Shown here piece after piece: positions 8,072-51,246 of a stretch of 63,164 bases of DNA. The translations under genes and the position numbers were made by a program. Source of the DNA: Candidatus Gastranaerophilales bacterium (GTDB lineage: Bacteria > Cyanobacteriota > Vampirovibrionia > Gastranaerophilales > Gastranaerophilaceae); contig CALUTJ010000017.1 in NCBI GenBank assembly GCA_944323685.1, positions 1 through 63,164 on the forward strand. The letters are read 5' to 3'. How positions within the stretch are numbered: the stretch's first letter is position 1; each line of letters begins with the position of its first letter. Under the pieces are notes generated by a model. It searched no databases. It had not been told where the DNA came from and saw only the letters and a list, made by a program, of their open reading frames with translations.

Positions 8072-8854
8072 ATGATAATAAAAAAATACAACCAGAAAAA
8101 AATAGTAAAAGCGCAAATAAAACAGCCGGCACCGCCTCCCGCTCAGGAGATTGAGCAGGAGATTGCCGAGCAGCCTCAAACGGAAGAGGCGTCATTACAA
8201 AGTCAAGAACCTGAAGCAGCGCCTGAGCCTAAAGAGGATAAAACAGATATTTTTGCGGGGTTTAATTTTGATGAAATTGAATTCAGTCAGCGCGCAGAAC
8301 GCCGCCGCGGCGACAGAAGACGCGGATATCGCCGTATAGATGACCGTAATTTGATTTCAAGAGCGCAGCAGGAAGCCATTATGATTAAAGAACAGGCTTC
8401 TAAAGAAGGTTACGAAAAAGGTCTTATCGAAGCTCACTCATCTGTAAAAACACTTAAACATGCTATAGAAGAGTTTTTTACATATAAAGATGAGGTTTAT
8501 AAAAAAGTTTCGGAAGATATTTTGGATATATCATTAAAAGTTGCGGAAAAGATTATAAAAAAAGAGGTAGCAAGCGACAGAACGATACTTGATGCAATTG
8601 TTAATGATGCGTTGAAAAGTCTTGCTAAAGACGAAAATAAAATTATACTTAAAGTAAATCCGACAGATGTTGAATATACCAAAGATATTGTGCCTAATCT
8701 TTTGTCTTCGGGACAATTCGAGGCAAAAATCTATGTGTCGGGCGATAAAGATGTAGAAGAAGGTTCGGCAATTATAGAAACATCAAACGGCATTATTGAC
8801 GCAAATATAAAAACACAGCTTGAATTAATCAAGGAGGCATTTAAACAAATCTAA
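8072..8854 (+). CDS. fliH: Flagellar export ATPase regulator FliH
   Basis: FliH binds and restrains the FliI ATPase at the flagellar export gate. The 260-residue product has a disordered Pro/Glu/Gln-rich N-terminus, a strongly basic patch RRRGDRRRGYRR near 81-93, and then the FliH/HrpE-like C-terminal domain, with YEKGLIEA, ILDISLKVAEKIIKKEV and ILKVNPTDVEYTKD recognisable. The basic patch is unusual for the family. The stop codon overlaps the start of flhA (TAATG), indicating translational coupling. Confidence 0.88.
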   Translation: MIIKKYNQKKIVKAQIKQPAPPPAQEIEQEIAEQPQTEEASLQSQEPEAAPEPKEDKTDIFAGFNFDEIEFSQRAERRRGDRRRGYRRIDDRNLISRAQQEAIMIKEQASKEGYEKGLIEAHSSVKTLKHAIEEFFTYKDEVYKKVSEDILDISLKVAEKIIKKEVASDRTILDAIVNDALKSLAKDENKIILKVNPTDVEYTKDIVPNLLSSGQFEAKIYVSGDKDVEEGSAIIETSNGIIDANIKTQLELIKEAFKQI

Positions 8855-10950
8855 TGGCAGGTGCACAGGGTTCAAATACAATAAGTGAATTATCATTGGC
8901 GGTATTCGTTGTAGCGCTGATACTTATTTTGCTTATAGAAGTACCTACCTGGATTATAAACTTTTCAATTTCATTGAATATTACACTCGGTATCGTGCTT
9001 TTAATGATATCGTTGTATATTCAAAAGCCCTTGGAATTAGCGGCATTTCCGTCTATTATCCTTATCGGTACAATGTTCAGGCTTGTACTGGGTATTGCTT
9101 CAACAAGACTTATTCTTGCCAAAGGTGAGGCGGGTGAAGTTATCCACGCGTTCGGAACGTTCGTCACAGGCGGTAACATGGTCGTTGGCGGTGTAATCTT
9201 TATCATTATTACGATTGTTCAGTTTATGGTAATCACAAAAGGTGCCGAACGTATCGCTGAGGTTTCGGCAAGGTTTGCATTGGATGCTATGCCCGGTAAA
9301 CAGATGACAATCGATGCGGATTTTAACGCAGGCTTAATTTCACCTGATGAAGCGGTAAAAAGACGTGAAGATTTACAAAGAGAATCAGCTCTGTTCGGTT
9401 CAATGGACGGTGCCATGAAGTTTGTAAAAGGTGATACGATGGCAGGTATTATCATCGTAATCATCAACATTATCGGCGGTTTGTGTATCGGGGTTTTACA
9501 GCAGGGACTGCCTGTAGGCGATGCTGTTTCTAAATATACAATCCTGACAATAGGTGACGGTTTGTCCTCTCAGGTTCCGTCATTGTTAATGGCTATTTCA
9601 GCCGGTATCGTTATGACCCGTGCGTCAGCTGCCAGCCCGAGCTTGGCAACAGATGTTGCCGGTCAGATTTTGAGCAAACCGATGAGTTTGTTCTGTGCTG
9701 TCGGCTTCTTGCTTTTGATTGCGGTAACAAGCCACTGGACAGGTTTGCCGTGGCTGCCTTTTACAATATTTGCAATAATTATCACAATTGCTGCATTTTC
9801 TGTCCTTGTTAATCAGGATGTACAGGCTCAACTCGGACAATTGGAGAATGTTAAGCAGAACATGCAGGATCTTGTTAACCCTAACAAAATGTACGAACGT
9901 TTGGGGGTTGATGTATTGAGTTTGCAGGTTGGTTCCGGCTTGCTGCCTATTGCAGACCCCGATCAGGAAGGTCAGCTTCTTGCTAAAATTGCGGCATTGC
10001 GTCAACGTGTAACTGATGAGCTGGGTTATATTATTCCAAACATAAGAATTATGGATTCGTCTGCATTAGATGCAAACGAGTATTTGATTTCAATTCGCGG
10101 TAACAAAGTTGCCAACGGTTTTGTATACCCCGGCAAACTTATGGTTATTGCCGACCAGTGGGATTCTACGGGCAAACCGCCGCCGGCTGATACAATCGTA
10201 AATATTGATCCTACATATCAGGCTAATGCTTACTGGGTGGATCCTTCTCAAATTGATGAGAATGATCACCTCACGGCTGTTGACTCCGTTGACGTAATTG
10301 TTACCCACCTGCAAGAGTGTGTAAGAAAATACGTTGATGAGGTTATGACAAAAACTGATGTCCTTAAACTTATGGAGCTTGTTAAGTCGCAAGACCCGAC
10401 ACTTGTTAACGACCTTGTGCCGGCAATTATTTCCACAAGCGATTTGAGGAAAATCTTTGTTAACTTAATCAGAGAAAAAGTTTCTATCAAAGATATCATA
10501 TTTATTTTTGAAAGACTTTGCGATTATGCAAGGTTTTCCAAAGAACCTGATATTTTGTCAGAACGTATAAGAGCAGCTTTAGGCCGTCAGATATGTTTGT
10601 CTAACTGTACGGAAGACAAAGTGCTTTATGCTCTTACACTTTCAAGTGAATGGGAAAAAACACTCGATGACAGCTGTCAGAGAACAGAGCTCGGGACAAT
10701 GTTTTTGCTGAACCCGATGCAGGTGCAGGAACTTATCGAAACAACTGCTTCTACTCTTATGAGAGCGCACCAGACAGTCGGCAGACAGCCTGTTATTCTC
10801 TGTTCACCAAGAATCAGACTGCCTTTGTATCAGCTGCTTGAAAGACATATTCCGACAATTGTTGTTATTTCTTACAGTGAACTTATTACGGATATCAGGG
10901 TTGAAGCCGTTGATACAATCGGTGAAATGTATTCTCCCGATTACCAGTAA
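8854..10950 (+). CDS. flhA: Flagellar export gate protein FlhA
   Basis: FlhA is the large export-gate protein of the flagellar type III secretion apparatus. The 698-residue length is normal. The N-terminal half has about eight transmembrane helices. The FHIPEP signature region is clear: TKGAERIAEVSARFALDAMP followed by GKQMTIDADFNAGLI. The C-terminal cytosolic domain starts near 340 and ends in a typical VISYSEL segment. Placement between fliH and fliI is uncommon, because many bacteria keep flhA in a separate flhB-flhA locus. Confidence 0.96.
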   Translation: MAGAQGSNTISELSLAVFVVALILILLIEVPTWIINFSISLNITLGIVLLMISLYIQKPLELAAFPSIILIGTMFRLVLGIASTRLILAKGEAGEVIHAFGTFVTGGNMVVGGVIFIIITIVQFMVITKGAERIAEVSARFALDAMPGKQMTIDADFNAGLISPDEAVKRREDLQRESALFGSMDGAMKFVKGDTMAGIIIVIINIIGGLCIGVLQQGLPVGDAVSKYTILTIGDGLSSQVPSLLMAISAGIVMTRASAASPSLATDVAGQILSKPMSLFCAVGFLLLIAVTSHWTGLPWLPFTIFAIIITIAAFSVLVNQDVQAQLGQLENVKQNMQDLVNPNKMYERLGVDVLSLQVGSGLLPIADPDQEGQLLAKIAALRQRVTDELGYIIPNIRIMDSSALDANEYLISIRGNKVANGFVYPGKLMVIADQWDSTGKPPPADTIVNIDPTYQANAYWVDPSQIDENDHLTAVDSVDVIVTHLQECVRKYVDEVMTKTDVLKLMELVKSQDPTLVNDLVPAIISTSDLRKIFVNLIREKVSIKDIIFIFERLCDYARFSKEPDILSERIRAALGRQICLSNCTEDKVLYALTLSSEWEKTLDDSCQRTELGTMFLLNPMQVQELIETTASTLMRAHQTVGRQPVILCSPRIRLPLYQLLERHIPTIVVISYSELITDIRVEAVDTIGEMYSPDYQ

Positions 10951-14626: not shown

Positions 14627-15640
14627 ATGATTAGTATTGCAAAAACAGCTATGACTTTGGGCAGAACGCTCTACACTACCAAAACGACAGGAGCAAGAGC
14701 CACTACTCTTTTTGATGAATTTTGTAAAACAATGAGCAATCCTAAAATTGTAAATAAACATGCTGCAAGAATAGAAGAGGATATAATCCAAAAACAAGAA
14801 GATTTAAAAAATATTGTTGATGAAATACTAAAAAAATCGGGTGTAGATGCACTTGCCCCCGACAGGGTAAAAGGTGCAGGTTCGACTGCAAGTAAAATTC
14901 AAAAAAAGTTTAACAGCTTTAAAAACAAAGACTATGATTCGGTAAGAGAACAAATTCAAGATGTTATTTTAGGCAACGGCCCGAGAGAACTTGTTGGTGA
15001 TTCCTACGGGTTCAGATTTATAATAAACAGCGAAAAAACGGGAGCTAAAAGAAGCTCGACAAAGTTATATGAAAGTATTCTGGATTGTCAAAAACAACAT
15101 AAAGATACCTTTAGCTTAACAAGTTTTGAAGATTATTACGGACAGGGGATAAAACCGTACGGCAGCGAAGCAATAGCGGATAAGTTTGCTCAATTGCAAT
15201 ACTCCACTCCGTCAGGAAAAATAAAAGAAACTGTTGCCGCCTTTACGGAAAAACCGTCAGGTTATACCAGAACAAACATTAACGGGCGTATAAACGGAGT
15301 TAATGTAGAGATTCAGGTGGGTGGTAAATATACAACAAAATGGGGAGATGTTGAACATATTCTCTACGACATGCGTCAGGGAAAACCGCTCGACATGTCA
15401 CACTATACACCGGAGCAAAAAGAACTTGCGCTAAATATTCAAAAAGCTTATCAAGAGGTACTTGCAAGAAAATCCGGAAATACCGCAGCAAAATTTTCTG
15501 AAGTTTACTTAAATAAAGTTTGGGAAACATTCAGAAAAGCGGAAATTCAAGGTCTTCAAGAACCTATATATCCTCCGTTTCCCGATGGATATCCTCAAAT
15601 TTTAAAAGTTGAAAATATTTTAAAATTGGCACATGTTTAA
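14627..15640 (+). CDS. RelA/SpoT nucleotidyltransferase-fold protein
   Basis: The product is 337 residues. The order of motifs matches the (p)ppGpp synthetase domain: RVKGAGSTASKIQKKF (80-95; compare the R-x-K-S/xxxKxxRK motif), ELVGDSYGFRFII (121-133; compare DLxGIRI), GYTRTNI (212-218; compare GYRSLH), VEIQV (227-231; compare VEIQIRT) and WGDVEHILY (239-247). No HD hydrolase or TGS domain is present, so it resembles a small alarmone synthetase with an extra N-terminal helix. Several positions differ from canonical synthetases, so the activity could be altered or toxin-like. Its neighbour at 15717 is on the same strand. Confidence 0.65.
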   Translation: MISIAKTAMTLGRTLYTTKTTGARATTLFDEFCKTMSNPKIVNKHAARIEEDIIQKQEDLKNIVDEILKKSGVDALAPDRVKGAGSTASKIQKKFNSFKNKDYDSVREQIQDVILGNGPRELVGDSYGFRFIINSEKTGAKRSSTKLYESILDCQKQHKDTFSLTSFEDYYGQGIKPYGSEAIADKFAQLQYSTPSGKIKETVAAFTEKPSGYTRTNINGRINGVNVEIQVGGKYTTKWGDVEHILYDMRQGKPLDMSHYTPEQKELALNIQKAYQEVLARKSGNTAAKFSEVYLNKVWETFRKAEIQGLQEPIYPPFPDGYPQILKVENILKLAHV

Positions 15641-36270: not shown

Positions 36271-36701
36271 CAATGTCTGTGAAATTTTGTGATAAGACTC
36301 TGCCGGACAAGACAATCCTGTGAAATCTTTTGAGAGAGAAATAACAAGAATGACTTTTTTGACAAAGCAAACACGCACAACCGCGGCAGCGGATTAGATT
36401 AACATTGACAAAAACCGCAAAAAAAACGACAATACTATAAAGATATTGTCCGAGAAAAATTCGAGATAAGGAGCAAAGCGACGTGAACGAATTTTTGGAG
36501 TGACACATTGAAAAGGTGAGCAGTGACGGCTCGAAGGCTCGAGGCGGCAACTGCGATACTAGATTAAATTTTGAGCATATTAACCTTGGTAACAAATTGT
36601 TAAGAGCATGCTTGAAAAAAGTAAATTTAATTTTTGAGCAAACTTTATATTTGTGTGATGTGTCAAAATTAAAGAATTATTAATTAATAGGGCTAATAGT
36701 T
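36271..36701. repeat. Intergenic repeat unit, copy 1
   Basis: No gene is supported here. Block A (36446-36510, begins TTGTCCGAGAAAAATTCG) matches 43396-43460 at 61 of 65 positions. Block B (36517-36566, begins TGAGCAGTGACGGCTCGAAG) matches 43522-43571 at 48 of 50. Only 6 bp separate the blocks in this copy, against 61 bp in the other. A related fragment GCGGCAGCGGATTAGATTAA occurs at about 36379-36398. The unit is a dispersed non-coding element. Confidence 0.85.
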
Positions 36702-42944: not shown

Positions 42945-43205
42945 CTACTTAGCAACGGCTTTGTATTTTGCAGCCAGCTGATTGTATTGTTCAGCCTGAG
43001 CACAAGCCATGCGGCAGGCTAAATCATATTTGGCATTGAGCTTTTCATATTTAGCGTTTAAATCATCATATTCTTTTCTTGAAACAGTATTACCGGCTGC
43101 GAATGCAGGATTAGACGGGGTATTTTTCTGAGGCTGTTCAGCTGCTTTTCCAAAACTTCTTAAAGGTTGGCATGACATGTTGTTTGTAGCTAAGCTGACG
43201 CGCAT
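42945..43205 (-). CDS. Small coiled-coil protein with N-terminal SFGK motif
   Basis: The product is 86 residues from the ATG at 43205 (upstream AAAGGAGATTCAA), rather than an ATG six codons upstream. LRSFGKAAEQ lies near the N-terminus, then a Pro/Asn-rich stretch, then a heptad-like coiled coil (YDDLNAKYEKLNAKYDLACRMACAQAEQY is one helix with repeated NAKY units). It converges with yraN. The function is unknown. Confidence 0.72.
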   Translation of the reverse strand: MRVSLATNNMSCQPLRSFGKAAEQPQKNTPSNPAFAAGNTVSRKEYDDLNAKYEKLNAKYDLACRMACAQAEQYNQLAAKYKAVAK

Positions 43206-43618
43206 TTGAATCTCCTTTCTCATTCCCGTAATACTTTCTTCGGCTCAATTATTATACCTCTATATTTTGATTATTTCAATATGTAAAGTTTGTAAATTCA
43301 GGATGAAATTTTAAAGATTAGATTTTACTTTCGGATAATGCAGTTTAATACAATTTTACCCCGCATATGTATTAAAAAGATATTACCTGCTAAAGTTGTC
43401 CGAGAAAAATTCGTGATAAGGAGCAAAGCGATGTGAACAAATTTTTGGAGTGTCACATTGTTCACATAGTGAAGCCATTTTTCAGGCTTCACCACAGTTC
43501 AGCCGAAAAAGAAGGCAAAGATGAGCAGTGACGGCTCGAAGGCTCGAGGCGGCAACTGCGGCACTAGATTAGATAATGCAAAATATACAAAACCTGTAAT
43601 AGAATCAAAAGCTTTATA
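43206..43618. repeat. Intergenic repeat unit, copy 2
   Basis: The unit at 43396-43571 matches 36446-36566 in two blocks (see that entry). Here the blocks are separated by 61 bp (43461-43521), which carries a hairpin GTGAAGCC (43469-43476) with GGCTTCAC (43485-43492) and the words TTCACAT and CCACAG also seen in the left-edge repeat. The modular layout suggests mobile or recombining sub-blocks. No gene is supported here. Confidence 0.85.
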
Positions 43619-45282
43619 TTATGCCATGTTTTCACTTATTTCAGATACCAGAAATCCTGCTAAAGACTTTTCATCAGCAGCAAGAAAGATTTCTTTGCCA
43701 AAACTGTTTTTAATTGAAAAATGGCCGTTACCTGTTTTTGAGACAAACAACCTGCCTAATTTTGTTTTAACTTTCGGGCTTAAATCCATTATGCTATTTT
43801 GTTCTAACGATTCCAAAAAAGAAGAATCACTTATTAGATTTTCAAACAATGTATCCGCAGAAGTTTCAGCAGCTGCCCCCATTGTCTGGCTGACGATATT
43901 AGATAATCTGCCAGGTGTCTTTGATAAATATCTTTCTACGGTTGAACCTAAAGGGCCTGCGACATATGAACCGAAGGCTCCGTAAATAACGGCATCTTTC
44001 CCTTGAGATTTTAATTCTTCAATTGATTCCGCGGTAAAACCTTTTTCGCTTGTTGCTGTACTTGCTGCGGAAAAACCTACGTGCATTAAATCCGGCCCGA
44101 ATGTTTTGCCTATATATCCTATTGCTTTTCCCGCTCCTTTCCCCACTCCTTTCTTTATGACTGTTGTGCCGAGGAATAACATCGTTGTAGCTACGGTTAA
44201 ACCAAGCTCAACATATGCCGATTGAGTTTTTGCGTTTTCAACAAAATCGGCGGCTGTTTTTTGATAATTTTGGGTTCCCATTACCTTTTTACATGCTGTT
44301 TCATATTCCAGTTTGTATTGTGAGTATGTTTTATCCCCCAGAGCTTCTTTTTCCTGTGCTTCGCATTTTGCAATCAATTCATCCATAATCTGAGGAAGTT
44401 TTTCACGTATTTCTTTTTTACTTCCGCAAGAAACAGAAAGGCTGTCCATATATTGTGCAAACAGTTCCGAGTCAAAATTGCAAAATTGAAACATTACCTC
44501 TGCAAACTTTTCATCAGAAGATGTCTCAAGTTCTTTCAATGAGCCTGCTGCTTGCGGGGAAATTTGTTTTGTCATTTCTCGTGACTGTTCAATTTTCATT
44601 ATCCTTTTGACTTCCTCAAAACCGGCTTTAAGGTTTTCTGTTTTTTCATGATAGGCTGTTACTCTTATATATTCATCCGAAGACTTTTTTAAGTTTTCAA
44701 TATTTTCATACGAATAAGGAACCCCGTATTTTTTTCAATCTCTTTCTCAAATGCACTAAGATTTTTTGTAGAAAATTTCAATTTTTGGGCGGCTAATTGT
44801 TCTTGGAACATTTCCCTTTCCAATTCAATACGTCCTTTATTACCGGCGAAAATATTGGCACCGCTGGCCACTCTGGCGGGGATATCCGCCCACCCGACAG
44901 AATCATTGTAATCTGCTATTATTTCATAGCCTTCAAGAGCGGAATTATAAATAAAATTCCCCAAAAAATCATTTAATTCTTGTTTCTGCTTATTCGAGTA
45001 TTCTTTCTGGATTTCAGGTTCGGACTTGTCGGAAAATGATATTAAAGAAGTATTATTACCGGCTTGTGAAGAAAAAATATTGTCTTTAAATTTTTGCATA
45101 CCGGGGTTTAAAAATTGAAAACTTCCCACATCTGTCTGGTTGTACTCCTGTATATTGGCAATAATCATACTCAACTCTTTATCAGTGAGTTGATTTAGTT
45201 TTATTCTGGCTCTTTCGGCCTCTTGTCCGCTAAGACCCATCGAGGATATTATTTTAGATATTATTACCGAATAATCAGACAT
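43619..45282 (-). pseudogene. Frameshifted gene, about 554-residue reconstructed protein
   Basis: Two open frames (45282-44689 and 44599-43619) are joined by an open, protein-like stretch in the second frame. At an A7 run (minus strand; T7 at 44729-44735) the first frame runs into a short tail and a stop, while the second frame reads KYGVPYSYENIENLKKSSDEY and continues without a stop into the downstream part. One added A, or a -1 ribosomal slip at A-AAA-AAT, joins them. The N-terminal part is helical and acidic. The C-terminal part has a hydrophobic Gly-rich centre (LGLTVATTMLFLGTTVIKKGVGKGAGKAIGY). The cause may be real decay, programmed slippage or an assembly error. The family is unknown. 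Confidence 0.7.
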
Positions 45283-45370
45283 TATTTCCCTGTTAAGTTA
45301 ACTTCACTTAGAAGTTATCGGCATCTGAGAGCTGTATCTTTAAGTTTTAGTCTGTTTTATTAAGTTATAT

Positions 45371-45403
45371 TAAAAAAAAGCAAAACCCGAAAATGGATTT
45401 TGC
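45371..45403 (-). terminator. Intrinsic terminator of the sigma factor gene
   Basis: GCAAAACCC (45380-45388) pairs with GGATTTTGC (45395-45403), with one mismatch, and A8 at 45372-45379 is a U-tract on the minus strand. It lies about 95 bp downstream of the sigma gene stop. Confidence 0.75.
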
Positions 45404-45496: not shown

Positions 45497-46501
45497 TCAG
45501 TTTAAATACTCTTTCATATGGGATATTTCCTGTCTTGCTTTAAGTTTTTGCAGTGCAATATTTTCTATCTGACGAATACGTTCTTTAGAAAAACCCATTA
45601 TTTTTCCGATTTCTTCCAGAGTTAATTTGCTGTTGCCGTCAAGGCCGAACCGGTTTATTAATATAGCTTTTTCCCTCCGGTTTAAAAAATTCAGCATGGA
45701 CATAACGTCTTTGTAAAGAAATAATGATTGTGCTGTTGCATCGGGTGTGCGGTAGCTGTCATCGGCAACGTAATCCTCAAGTACCAGATCTTCGGCAATC
45801 GGGGTATCAAGACTTACCGGATCTTTAAAAATAGCGTTTTTAATGTTTTCTAATTTTTTTTCTGATATTCCGAGCTTTTCGCTCATTTCTGAATCCGTTG
45901 GCTCTCTTCCGAGCCTGCTGTTAAGAGTTACATATACTTTTTTATAAAGCCTTATTTTGTCTGTCATGTGAACGGGGATTCTTATTGTTCTTGAATGATT
46001 TGATATCGCTCTTACTATAGACTGTTTTATCCACCATGTTGCATAGGTGCTGAATTTAAAGCCACGTTTGTAATCAAACTTTTCCGCCGCTTTAATAAGT
46101 CCCATTGAACCTTCCTGCACAAGATCCATAAACAAGACACCCTGTCCTATATATTTTTTAGCAATACTTACCACAAGCCTCAAATTTGCCTGTATCAGCT
46201 TTTTCTTAGCAAGCTCAGCCTCTTTTGCATTCCCCTCTTTGATTTGCCTGCCGAGTTTCCTCTCGTCTTCGGTTTTTAAAAGTTTTATGCGCCCTATGTC
46301 TTTTAAATAATTTTGTAAAATGTCATTCTTTTTTACGATTGTGCTGAAAGTTTCTACGTTTTCATTTTCTAAATCAAAGGCATTATCTTGTATATTTTGT
46401 TCTTGAGCTTTGTTAAGCAGCTCTTTTTCATAATCTTGCGCAGCAAAATTTTCGACAGAAAAATTATTTGCCGGATTATTTAACATGTCCAAATTCCTCA
46501 A
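45497..46501 (-). CDS. RpoD-type primary-like sigma factor
   Basis: The product is 334 residues. Region 1.2 ([19 protein letters not shown]), region 2 ([44 protein letters not shown]), region 3 and region 4 ([31 protein letters not shown]) are intact. Region 1.1 is short and no long non-conserved insert is present, as in cyanobacterial SigA/group 2 factors. Whether it is the only housekeeping sigma cannot be judged here. Confidence 0.93.
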
Positions 46502-48575: not shown

Positions 48576-48650
48576 GCGAGAGTAGTTCAGTGGTAGAACA
48601 CTTCCTTGCCAAGGAAGGGGTCGCGAGTTCGAGCCTCGTCTCTCGCTCCA
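48576..48650 (+). tRNA. tRNA-Gly(GCC), CCA encoded
   Basis: The acceptor stem GCGAGAG (48576-48582) pairs with CTCTCGC (48640-48646), followed by T and CCA. The anticodon stem CTTCC/GGAAG holds the loop TTGCCAA, anticodon GCC at 48608-48610. The T arm is GCGAG-TTCGAGC-CTCGT. The 3' half from 48606 is repeated at the right end of the integrated element. Confidence 0.97.
48606..48650 (+). other. attL: tRNA 3' half, left end of the integrated element
   Basis: The 45 bp from the anticodon loop (TTGCCAAGG) to the CCA end are repeated at 62572-62600 plus 62720-62735. This is the usual target of tyrosine integrases in tRNA genes. The copy here lies in the intact tRNA and next to the integrase, so it is the left junction. 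Confidence 0.9.
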
Positions 48651-48656
48651 TTAAAC

Positions 48657-48680
48657 AGAGGGGTTCAGCCCTCTTTTTTA
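48657..48680 (+). terminator. Terminator of tRNA-Gly
   Basis: AGAGGG (48657-48662) pairs with CCCTCT (48669-48674) and is followed by T5. In this junction copy the terminator belongs to the element side. Confidence 0.82.
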
Positions 48681-48693
48681 ATGCTTATTTTTT

Positions 48694-48715
48694 CCTTCGA
48701 CTATATTTCGACGAC
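48694..48715. promoter_or_regulatory. Left copy of the end-proximal 20-bp repeat (putative arm-type site)
   Basis: TTCGACTATATTTCGACGAC (48696-48715) recurs with one mismatch at 62446-62465, just inside the other end of the element. TTCGAC occurs twice within it. Direct repeats inside both att sites fit arm-type binding sites for the integrase or Xis. This is an inference. Confidence 0.6.
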
Positions 48716-48771
48716 TACATCAGGATTACAATTCTGTATAGATTTATCTATATAAATAAAAATCAACGTAA

Positions 48772-49800
48772 TTAATCACTGTAATTTTCAAGTGCTTCAA
48801 TTGCTTTTAATTTCCTTTCAGGTACAGGATGAGCATATCGTTGAGTAGTTTTTAAATCAGCGTGTCCTAAAATTTCTTTTACAACTACAAGGTCAATACC
48901 AGCTGCAACCATTCTTGTGGCACTGGTGTGTCGTAATCCATGAAAAGTCAAATTCTTAATTTCAGCTTTTTTACATACATTACGAAAGGCTTTAGACAGA
49001 TATTTATAACCTGTTTGAGTAATAGGATTGGTGAAAACATAATCAGATATGGCGTTTTGTTTGAGTTCCTTAAAAATTGCCATTAGCTCATTACATATAG
49101 GTATCTTACGAATTTTATTATTTTTAGTTTTTAAAAGATTGATACACCTGTTTTTTAAATCTACATTCAAGCTCCACCGTAACTCCATAATCTCACCCCG
49201 TCTCATACCTGTAAGTAAGGCACATTTAATAATCGGTCTGAGATAAGTAAAATCACCAGTACAGTTTTCAAGTAATCTTTCTTCTTCTTTTTTTGTTAAA
49301 AATCGCTCTTTTATGTTATCTACTTTTAAAGGTGTCAAATTGACTGCTAAACAGGGATTTTCTTTGACCATATTTTCTTTAATCGCAAGAGCAAACATTC
49401 TTCTTAAAATCCCGACTTCTCTATTAATAGTCGCAGGTTTTACACCGTTTTCATCTTTTCTAAATTTTCTGTACTGTTCTATTTTCTTCGGTGTTATATC
49501 TTTTAACGGCGTATTTTTAAAGAAATTTTTTAAAATATTCACCTCTGACATATCATTTTTCCAGCCTGTTCTATTGTTTTTTGCGTATTCTATAAACATA
49601 TCAACAATCACAGAAAAAGGCTGTGTACCTTTATTTTCAACAAGGTCATATTTACCCTGTAACAGGTCTGATTTTATTCTAACTTCCGCCATTTCGGCAG
49701 TTTTTTTATCAACAGCTTCAGGAATTGCTTTGTGATACTGTTGACCTTTAATAACAAATTTATAATACCAGCGACCGTTTTTATGTTTATAGACTGACAT
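48772..49800 (-). CDS. int: Tyrosine site-specific integrase
   Basis: The product is 342 residues from the ATG at 49800, which has AAAGGAGCAGATAAAA before it. The N-terminus GRWYYKFVIKGQQYHKAI is an arm-binding domain, followed by a SAM-like core-binding domain. Catalytic residues lie in TGMRRGEIMELRW, TKNNKIRKIPI, FHGLRHTSATRM and LGHADLKTTQRYAHP: Arg, Lys, His-x-x-Arg, His and Tyr are all present. It integrates the element at the tRNA-Gly 3' half. Confidence 0.95.
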   Translation of the reverse strand: MSVYKHKNGRWYYKFVIKGQQYHKAIPEAVDKKTAEMAEVRIKSDLLQGKYDLVENKGTQPFSVIVDMFIEYAKNNRTGWKNDMSEVNILKNFFKNTPLKDITPKKIEQYRKFRKDENGVKPATINREVGILRRMFALAIKENMVKENPCLAVNLTPLKVDNIKERFLTKKEEERLLENCTGDFTYLRPIIKCALLTGMRRGEIMELRWSLNVDLKNRCINLLKTKNNKIRKIPICNELMAIFKELKQNAISDYVFTNPITQTGYKYLSKAFRNVCKKAEIKNLTFHGLRHTSATRMVAAGIDLVVVKEILGHADLKTTQRYAHPVPERKLKAIEALENYSD

Positions 49801-49982
49801 TTTTATCTGCTCCTTTTGATTAATTATCACGTCGTAAGAAGCTTAAAGTCAACGCACGCAACACTTTCACCCATATAGATTTATTGAAATCAAACCAAAA
49901 TAATAAAAATTAATTTATTTCCATACAAATCTATGAGTAAAATTTAAAATTTACAGATTTTTACATATTTTATGGACCATTT
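49801..49982. other. AT-rich gap between int and the winged-helix gene
   Basis: The 180 bp hold no gene I can support. The int ribosome binding site is at the left end. Confidence 0.5.
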
Positions 49983-50528
49983 TTATTCATCTGTGTTAGT
50001 TTTTAATTCTTCCACCAACCTTTGAAACAGAGGGTTATTACCTAAATTTTTTATAGTTATTCTTTTCCATTCATCTTCGGTTAATTCAGGTTCAGAAGAA
50101 TTTGAAGAAGAAGTATTTTCTTTATTTATTAATATATTATTATCATAAGATACTTCGGGAATATTCCCTAAGCAGGTTTGGGAACTTCCATAAGTAACTT
50201 TGGGGACAAGGTTTAGATACCCTAAGCAGGTTAAAGTAAATTTGTAATGTATTCTTTTATTTATTTTTTCTTTTTTTAATATATTTTTAGTTTCTAACTC
50301 CTTTACAGCTTGAAATACTGATACTTCACTTAAACCCGTACAATCAGCAATCGTCTTTTGTGTCGGATACGCATAACCTAAATTCGGATTCCAAAAGTCA
50401 ACAATACACCTTAACACCAATCTTGAAGACATCATCAGGTTTATCTTTGAAAACATTCTGCTTGTTGTAATGAGTTTGTTTAATTCAAAACTGCTCTTGT
50501 TTATCTTAAATTCTGATTTCCTCATCAA
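49983..50528 (-). CDS. Winged-helix DNA-binding protein of the element
   Basis: The product is 181 residues. The core, YAYPTQKTIADCTGLSEVSVFQAVKELETKNILKK, is a winged helix-turn-helix like those of RepA/DnaD-type proteins. The C-terminal part is Ser/Asn/Glu-rich. Its start overlaps the methylase-like gene by 23 bp. It may be a replication or control protein. Confidence 0.7.
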   Translation of the reverse strand: MMRKSEFKINKSSFELNKLITTSRMFSKINLMMSSRLVLRCIVDFWNPNLGYAYPTQKTIADCTGLSEVSVFQAVKELETKNILKKEKINKRIHYKFTLTCLGYLNLVPKVTYGSSQTCLGNIPEVSYDNNILINKENTSSSNSSEPELTEDEWKRITIKNLGNNPLFQRLVEELKTNTDE

Positions 50529-51246
50529 TTAGCCTTAATTGTACAGGTTCACCACTTTGTACTTCTTCAATTTCTTTAAATTCTTTGAGTCGTCTGTAAA
50601 ACCCATTGATAAAAAACATCGGTGTGTATAATGTTTCTTTTACCTTCAGTGATAAACTGTCTCCAAGTTGGACTTTTGCGGCTATTCCTAACAAAGACAG
50701 CTGTAAATAAGCCATTTTATAACATATTTCTTCAATATCCATTGCCTCTACATATAATTTCTGTTGAAAATTTATTCCTTCCTCTTTCATACAATCCGCA
50801 AAGGCAATAATTATACCGCCACTACCACAACACGGTTCACACATTGTGATAAAATCTTTGTTTTCAATATCTACCTTTAGATTTATGCAGTGTAGTCTCC
50901 CCATTAGTTTACTGGCATGGTATGGTGTGAAAAATTGACCTTTTCTGTGTTCTCCAAGACCGTTCATATTAAACATTTCACCTAAAAAATCTTTCATTCC
51001 CAGATCAAGTGAAATCAAAGTGTAAGCGTTCATTGCAGCAAAGTAATCAAGCTGTTTTCTGGAATATTTTTTAGCCGTGTTTAAATATTTTTCTTCAATA
51101 ATTTGTGACCTGTAAAAAGGTTGGGCTATTGAGTAAATTGATAACGTCAAAAAATCATTAAAAATTTCTGACACTGATTTTGAGGTATCAACCTCATGTA
51201 ATAACCTGTTAAATTCCTTTGGTATGTTAACCCGTTTGTCTTTCAT
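50506..51246 (-). CDS. N6-DNA-methylase-like protein lacking NPP(Y/F)
   Basis: The product is 246 residues. GKFFTPYHASKLMG-like sequence (QFFTPYHASKLMGRL) and the SAM-binding motif I EPCCGSGG identify an HsdM/N6-methylase fold, and AMDIEEICYKMAYLQLSLLG follows as motif II. The catalytic (N/D)PP(Y/F) motif is missing: the expected position reads LGDSLSLKVKETLYTPMFFING. The protein may be inactive or a remodelled family found on mobile elements. No partner specificity or restriction subunit is nearby. Confidence 0.72.
   Translation of the reverse strand: MKDKRVNIPKEFNRLLHEVDTSKSVSEIFNDFLTLSIYSIAQPFYRSQIIEEKYLNTAKKYSRKQLDYFAAMNAYTLISLDLGMKDFLGEMFNMNGLGEHRKGQFFTPYHASKLMGRLHCINLKVDIENKDFITMCEPCCGSGGIIIAFADCMKEEGINFQQKLYVEAMDIEEICYKMAYLQLSLLGIAAKVQLGDSLSLKVKETLYTPMFFINGFYRRLKEFKEIEEVQSGEPVQLRLIDEEIRI

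Follow-up and report, generated by a model that had tools for sequence, protein, structure and literature searches.

The closest counterparts of the locus analyzed here are giant ORFs of other Gastranaerophilales (for example on MAG contigs CALUQS010000039.1, CALUQS010000098.1 and CALUQO010000002.1), which share an N-terminal module of ~575 aa with the copy found in the window, the whole 63,164-nucleotide stretch of DNA under analysis. These ORFs are read in a single frame of 1235 to 2662 aa and carry C-terminal domains, whereas the window copy consists of the module only and contains a frame break. One of them, on CALUQS010000039.1 (genome G010), also shares the neighborhood of the window copy beside a sigma-factor gene. 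With a constant front module, seen by BLAST and in a profile survey, followed by differing C-terminal enzymatic domains, for which several of the Pfam matches are weak, these giant proteins are reminiscent of polymorphic toxins or modular effectors. A search of the literature on giant genes or polymorphic toxins in Gastranaerophilales found nothing relevant.

A second point of comparison is provided by genes that use programmed −1 frameshifting at heptamers of the A_AAA_AAG or A_AAA_AAC type, since the run of A residues at which the window copy changes frame likewise forms a slippery-type heptamer in the right phase. Unlike in those genes, the window site is not conserved, is not accompanied by a stimulatory structure, and has relatives that read straight through it. 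With a one-base break in its reading frame and its whole C-terminal part missing, the split gene is most likely the outcome of ordinary decay rather than a programmed trick. We consider it probable that the window copy is what remains of a giant modular gene after truncation and a recent frameshift, and that it is decaying.

Two frames of one module and the A7 run

Analysis of the minus strand of the window revealed a first open frame (45282..44689) encoding 197 aa, which the ORF listing and tblastn identified as the N-terminal part of the module, and a second open frame (44734..43619) of 371 codons from stop to stop, which contains the remainder of the conserved module. The two frames are successive parts of one protein and stand in a −1 relation at a run of seven A (44729..44735 on the minus strand; seven T on the plus strand). 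The same genus holds four intact copies, two in G010 (2662 and 2473 aa), one in G002 (1573 aa) and one in G022 (1235 aa), all of them in a single frame. Used as tblastn queries, these copies matched frame −3 as far as 44722 and then, with the query residues continuing in order, frame −2 starting at 44734, indicating that the frame changes in the run itself or no more than a few bases away from it. For example, residues 5-187 of the first G010 protein (G010a) were followed by residues 184-566, and the joined matches gave an E value of ~1e-138; judged from such alignments, the join of the two frames is far beyond chance. Homology to the relatives in the first frame extends to ~44722, the final ~11 residues being out-of-frame read-on to the stop, and the stop of the second frame (43619-43621) falls just beyond the end of the conserved module in the alignment with relatives. 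As assembled, the gene would be translated for only 197 residues, owing to a difference of one base in the length of the A-run; otherwise it is open over 552 codons up to its terminal stop.

These results bear out the original prediction that the two frames join as one protein, as both are homologous to a single frame in all four same-genus copies (tblastn), and the coordinates that it gave for the frames and for the seven-A run were correct. The two frames were indeed formerly one reading frame, but the proposed size of about 554 residues describes only the N-terminal module of proteins that reach 1235-2662 aa in the relatives. Similarly, the frame break at the A7 run was correctly noted but is accompanied by a second lesion, the loss of ~650-2100 C-terminal codons. 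Decay was among the explanations that the prediction listed; programmed slippage, which it also listed, found no comparative support.

The first ATG of the second frame, at 44599, is preceded by a weak AGGA and gives an ORF of 326 aa (44599..43619, minus strand), as might be expected if the two frames had always been separate genes joined in appearance only. This is extremely unlikely, because the relatives with a full module are all single-frame and because homology continues without gaps over the junction, including ~45 codons before the ATG at 44599. Related copies carry both stretches in one uninterrupted frame and never as two genes, and the homologues thereby rule out two separate genes.

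Programmed −1 ribosomal (or transcriptional) slippage at A_AAA_AAT, yielding products of 197 aa and ~554 aa, would require only one lesion, and it accords both with the zero-frame phase of the heptamer, which is right for −1 slippage, and with the continuation of the homologous protein in the −1 frame. Nevertheless, we judge it very unlikely, since the run is not conserved: at this position, the unbroken frame of the relatives has AAAAAAAA, AAAAGAAA, CGCAAA and CGTAAA in the alignment. In addition, the RNA downstream of the run is no more stable than shuffled sequences (MFE −14.5 versus −15.9 ± 2.9, z = +0.48), so no stimulatory structure above the shuffled background was found there, and the 34 intact ORFs of the window contain 54 in-frame A_AAA_AAN heptamers with no break in the frame. 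A conserved slippery site was ruled out by the alignment of relatives.

The main alternative explanation of the break is a sequence or assembly error, or an A-run length that is a minority or phase-variable state, such that most cells would carry an unbroken, short, module-only gene. A lone lesion in a homopolymer with 552 further codons free of stops, together with the retained codon-position asymmetry described below, speaks for this explanation, which we regard as unlikely but worth weighing. Against it, 45 A/T runs of at least 7 lie without a break inside the 34 intact ORFs of the window, indicating that homopolymers of this kind are not a general source of faults in the assembly. The loss of the C terminus and the decayed state of this locus in G013 provide independent evidence of decay.

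The locus across the genus

Comparison of the site among genomes of the genus used two synteny anchors, an RNA polymerase sigma factor gene (45497..46501, minus strand), with the giant gene lying just downstream of its terminator, and a genus-conserved 92-aa ORF (42945..43223, minus strand). Eight genomes (G002, G018, G017, G016, G006, G009, G021 and G022) have an empty site with only ~300 bp of intergenic DNA between the anchors, and relative to the empty site of the first three of these, the window contains an extra segment at 43333..45371. At the orthologous site, G010 has an intact gene of 2473 aa immediately after the sigma gene, on a contig that ends before the 92-aa ORF is reached, and G013 has a stub of ~50 codons with its own stop. 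The window genome shares the left leader that follows the sigma gene terminator with both G010 and G013, and shares the right edge of the extra segment with G013, indicating one insertion that has decayed in different ways.

When the syntenic G010 protein was compared by tblastn, no trace of its last ~1900 residues was detected at the window locus. Set against the single frame of 1235-2662 aa in the relatives, the frame break and the missing C-terminal part are lesions of the kind expected in a pseudogene. Decay is supported by the intact, stub and empty states at one site, by the loss of the C terminus and by homology. The occurrence of an intact gene, a module-only remnant, a stub and an empty site within one genus makes this locus a helpful natural example of the loss of such genes.

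A copy of a dispersed repeat of ~183 bp lies at 43393..43577, 41 bp downstream of the stop of the remnant. The genome of the window holds at least 36-40 near-full copies of this repeat at 92-98% identity, and copies or half-length modular variants (approximately positions 3-66 and 123-181 joined) are present in 22 of the 23 genomes of the genus. A second copy in the window (36446-36569) is without the middle part.

We propose that an ancestor in the genus had, in the interval bounded by the two anchors, a gene for a very large protein that would have combined a conserved, mainly helical N-terminal module of ~575 aa with a variable C-terminal part. In the genome of the window, the whole C-terminal part would then have been lost, probably through a deletion at or near the dispersed repeat, in which the repeat itself may have been involved. 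Later, an A-run in the remaining module would have changed in length by one base, introducing the stop after 197 residues. This order, with the deletion preceding the frameshift, is the one that we infer; the frameshift is presumably real in cells, and its product is presumably non-functional.

Divergence and age of the frameshift

The tree placed the window copy among the copies of its genus (97/98), but its terminal branch measured 0.89, compared to 0.04-0.19 for G010a, G010b, G002 and G022. Unique changes at second codon positions amounted to 0.13-0.15 in the window copy and 0.00-0.07 in the others, which, together with the long branch, suggests that constraint has weakened. Asymmetry among the codon positions nevertheless remains in the window copy (0.23/0.15/0.29 and 0.28/0.13/0.42), with the second position lower than the first and the first lower than the third. 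Every measurable dN/dS value, obtained from pairwise counts, was below 1, with dS saturated in many pairs, and the larger gaps relative to the relatives in the alignment comprised whole codons. In a neutral simulation, the probability of finding no stop fell below 0.05 beyond ~4% substitutions per site, and the window copy has diverged far more than this.

The stop-free 552 codons, the codon asymmetry, the dN/dS values below 1 and the whole-codon gaps together indicate that most of the divergence occurred while the frame was still translated. Retention of the frame through most of the divergence implies in turn that the break either arose recently, has not become fixed or does not exist in the cells. 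The frameshift looks recent, as the other 552 codons have remained without a stop despite divergence several times faster than that of the sister copies. The module alone may therefore have been useful until recently, or may still be. A stronger form of this idea, which we consider distinctly unlikely, is that the freed front module is a short protein with a fast-evolving role of its own, whose level is set by slippage on the A-run or which is switched on and off by changes in run length.

A giant modular protein family and other features of the window

Beyond the decaying remnant itself, the analysis uncovered giant modular proteins of gut Gastranaerophilales that form an unnamed family (loci L018, L019, L020, L021 and L124-L143), and we find this family more interesting than the frameshift. 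A family-wide search matched the module in 86 of 383 genomes of the family, with open frames of up to ~4000 aa. Near-whole-module matches had an open frame of at least 688 aa in every case except the window copy (371). The copies that were fully examined ranged from 681 aa, in a copy truncated by the end of its contig, to 4040 aa, had the module near the start, and were open throughout except for the copy in G106, which has one internal stop. That copy, at L138 (G106:C3), is a giant gene of the family broken by a single in-frame TAA inside the module.

The conserved N-terminal module of these ORFs comprises about 554-575 aa, and the similarity between the two G010 proteins ends after residue ~580. 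Pfam searches of the C-terminal parts found GNAT and RelA/SpoT-like domains in G010 and G107, HD-like domains in G096, G400, G391, G171, G087 and G266, a calpain-like domain in G023 and a phosphoribosyltransferase-like domain in G020, with several of these matches falling below the curated cut-off of Pfam. For the N-terminal module, no Pfam family covered it, and neither half of it in the window gave a credible Pfam family. A PDB sequence search with the intact module of a relative found no match; an AlphaFold model of such a module was mostly helical at low confidence (mean pLDDT 59), and Foldseek with this model returned nothing significant. PADLOC likewise gave no credible match.

Elsewhere in the window, a stand-alone ORF of 337 aa (14627-15640) had no Pfam match at 0.001 but showed similarity by tblastn (E = 3e-9) to the C terminus of the giant protein of G010, which is RelA/SpoT-like. 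Rfam matched no family over the window except a tRNA. A tRNA gene (48576-48647), a phage-type integrase (48772-49830) and an ORF resembling N6 DNA methylases (50506-51246) lie in succession, and the region 48576-51246 is probably an integrated element. Finally, the ORF at 8854-10950 encodes a protein of the FHIPEP family, similar to FlhA of flagellar or type III export.
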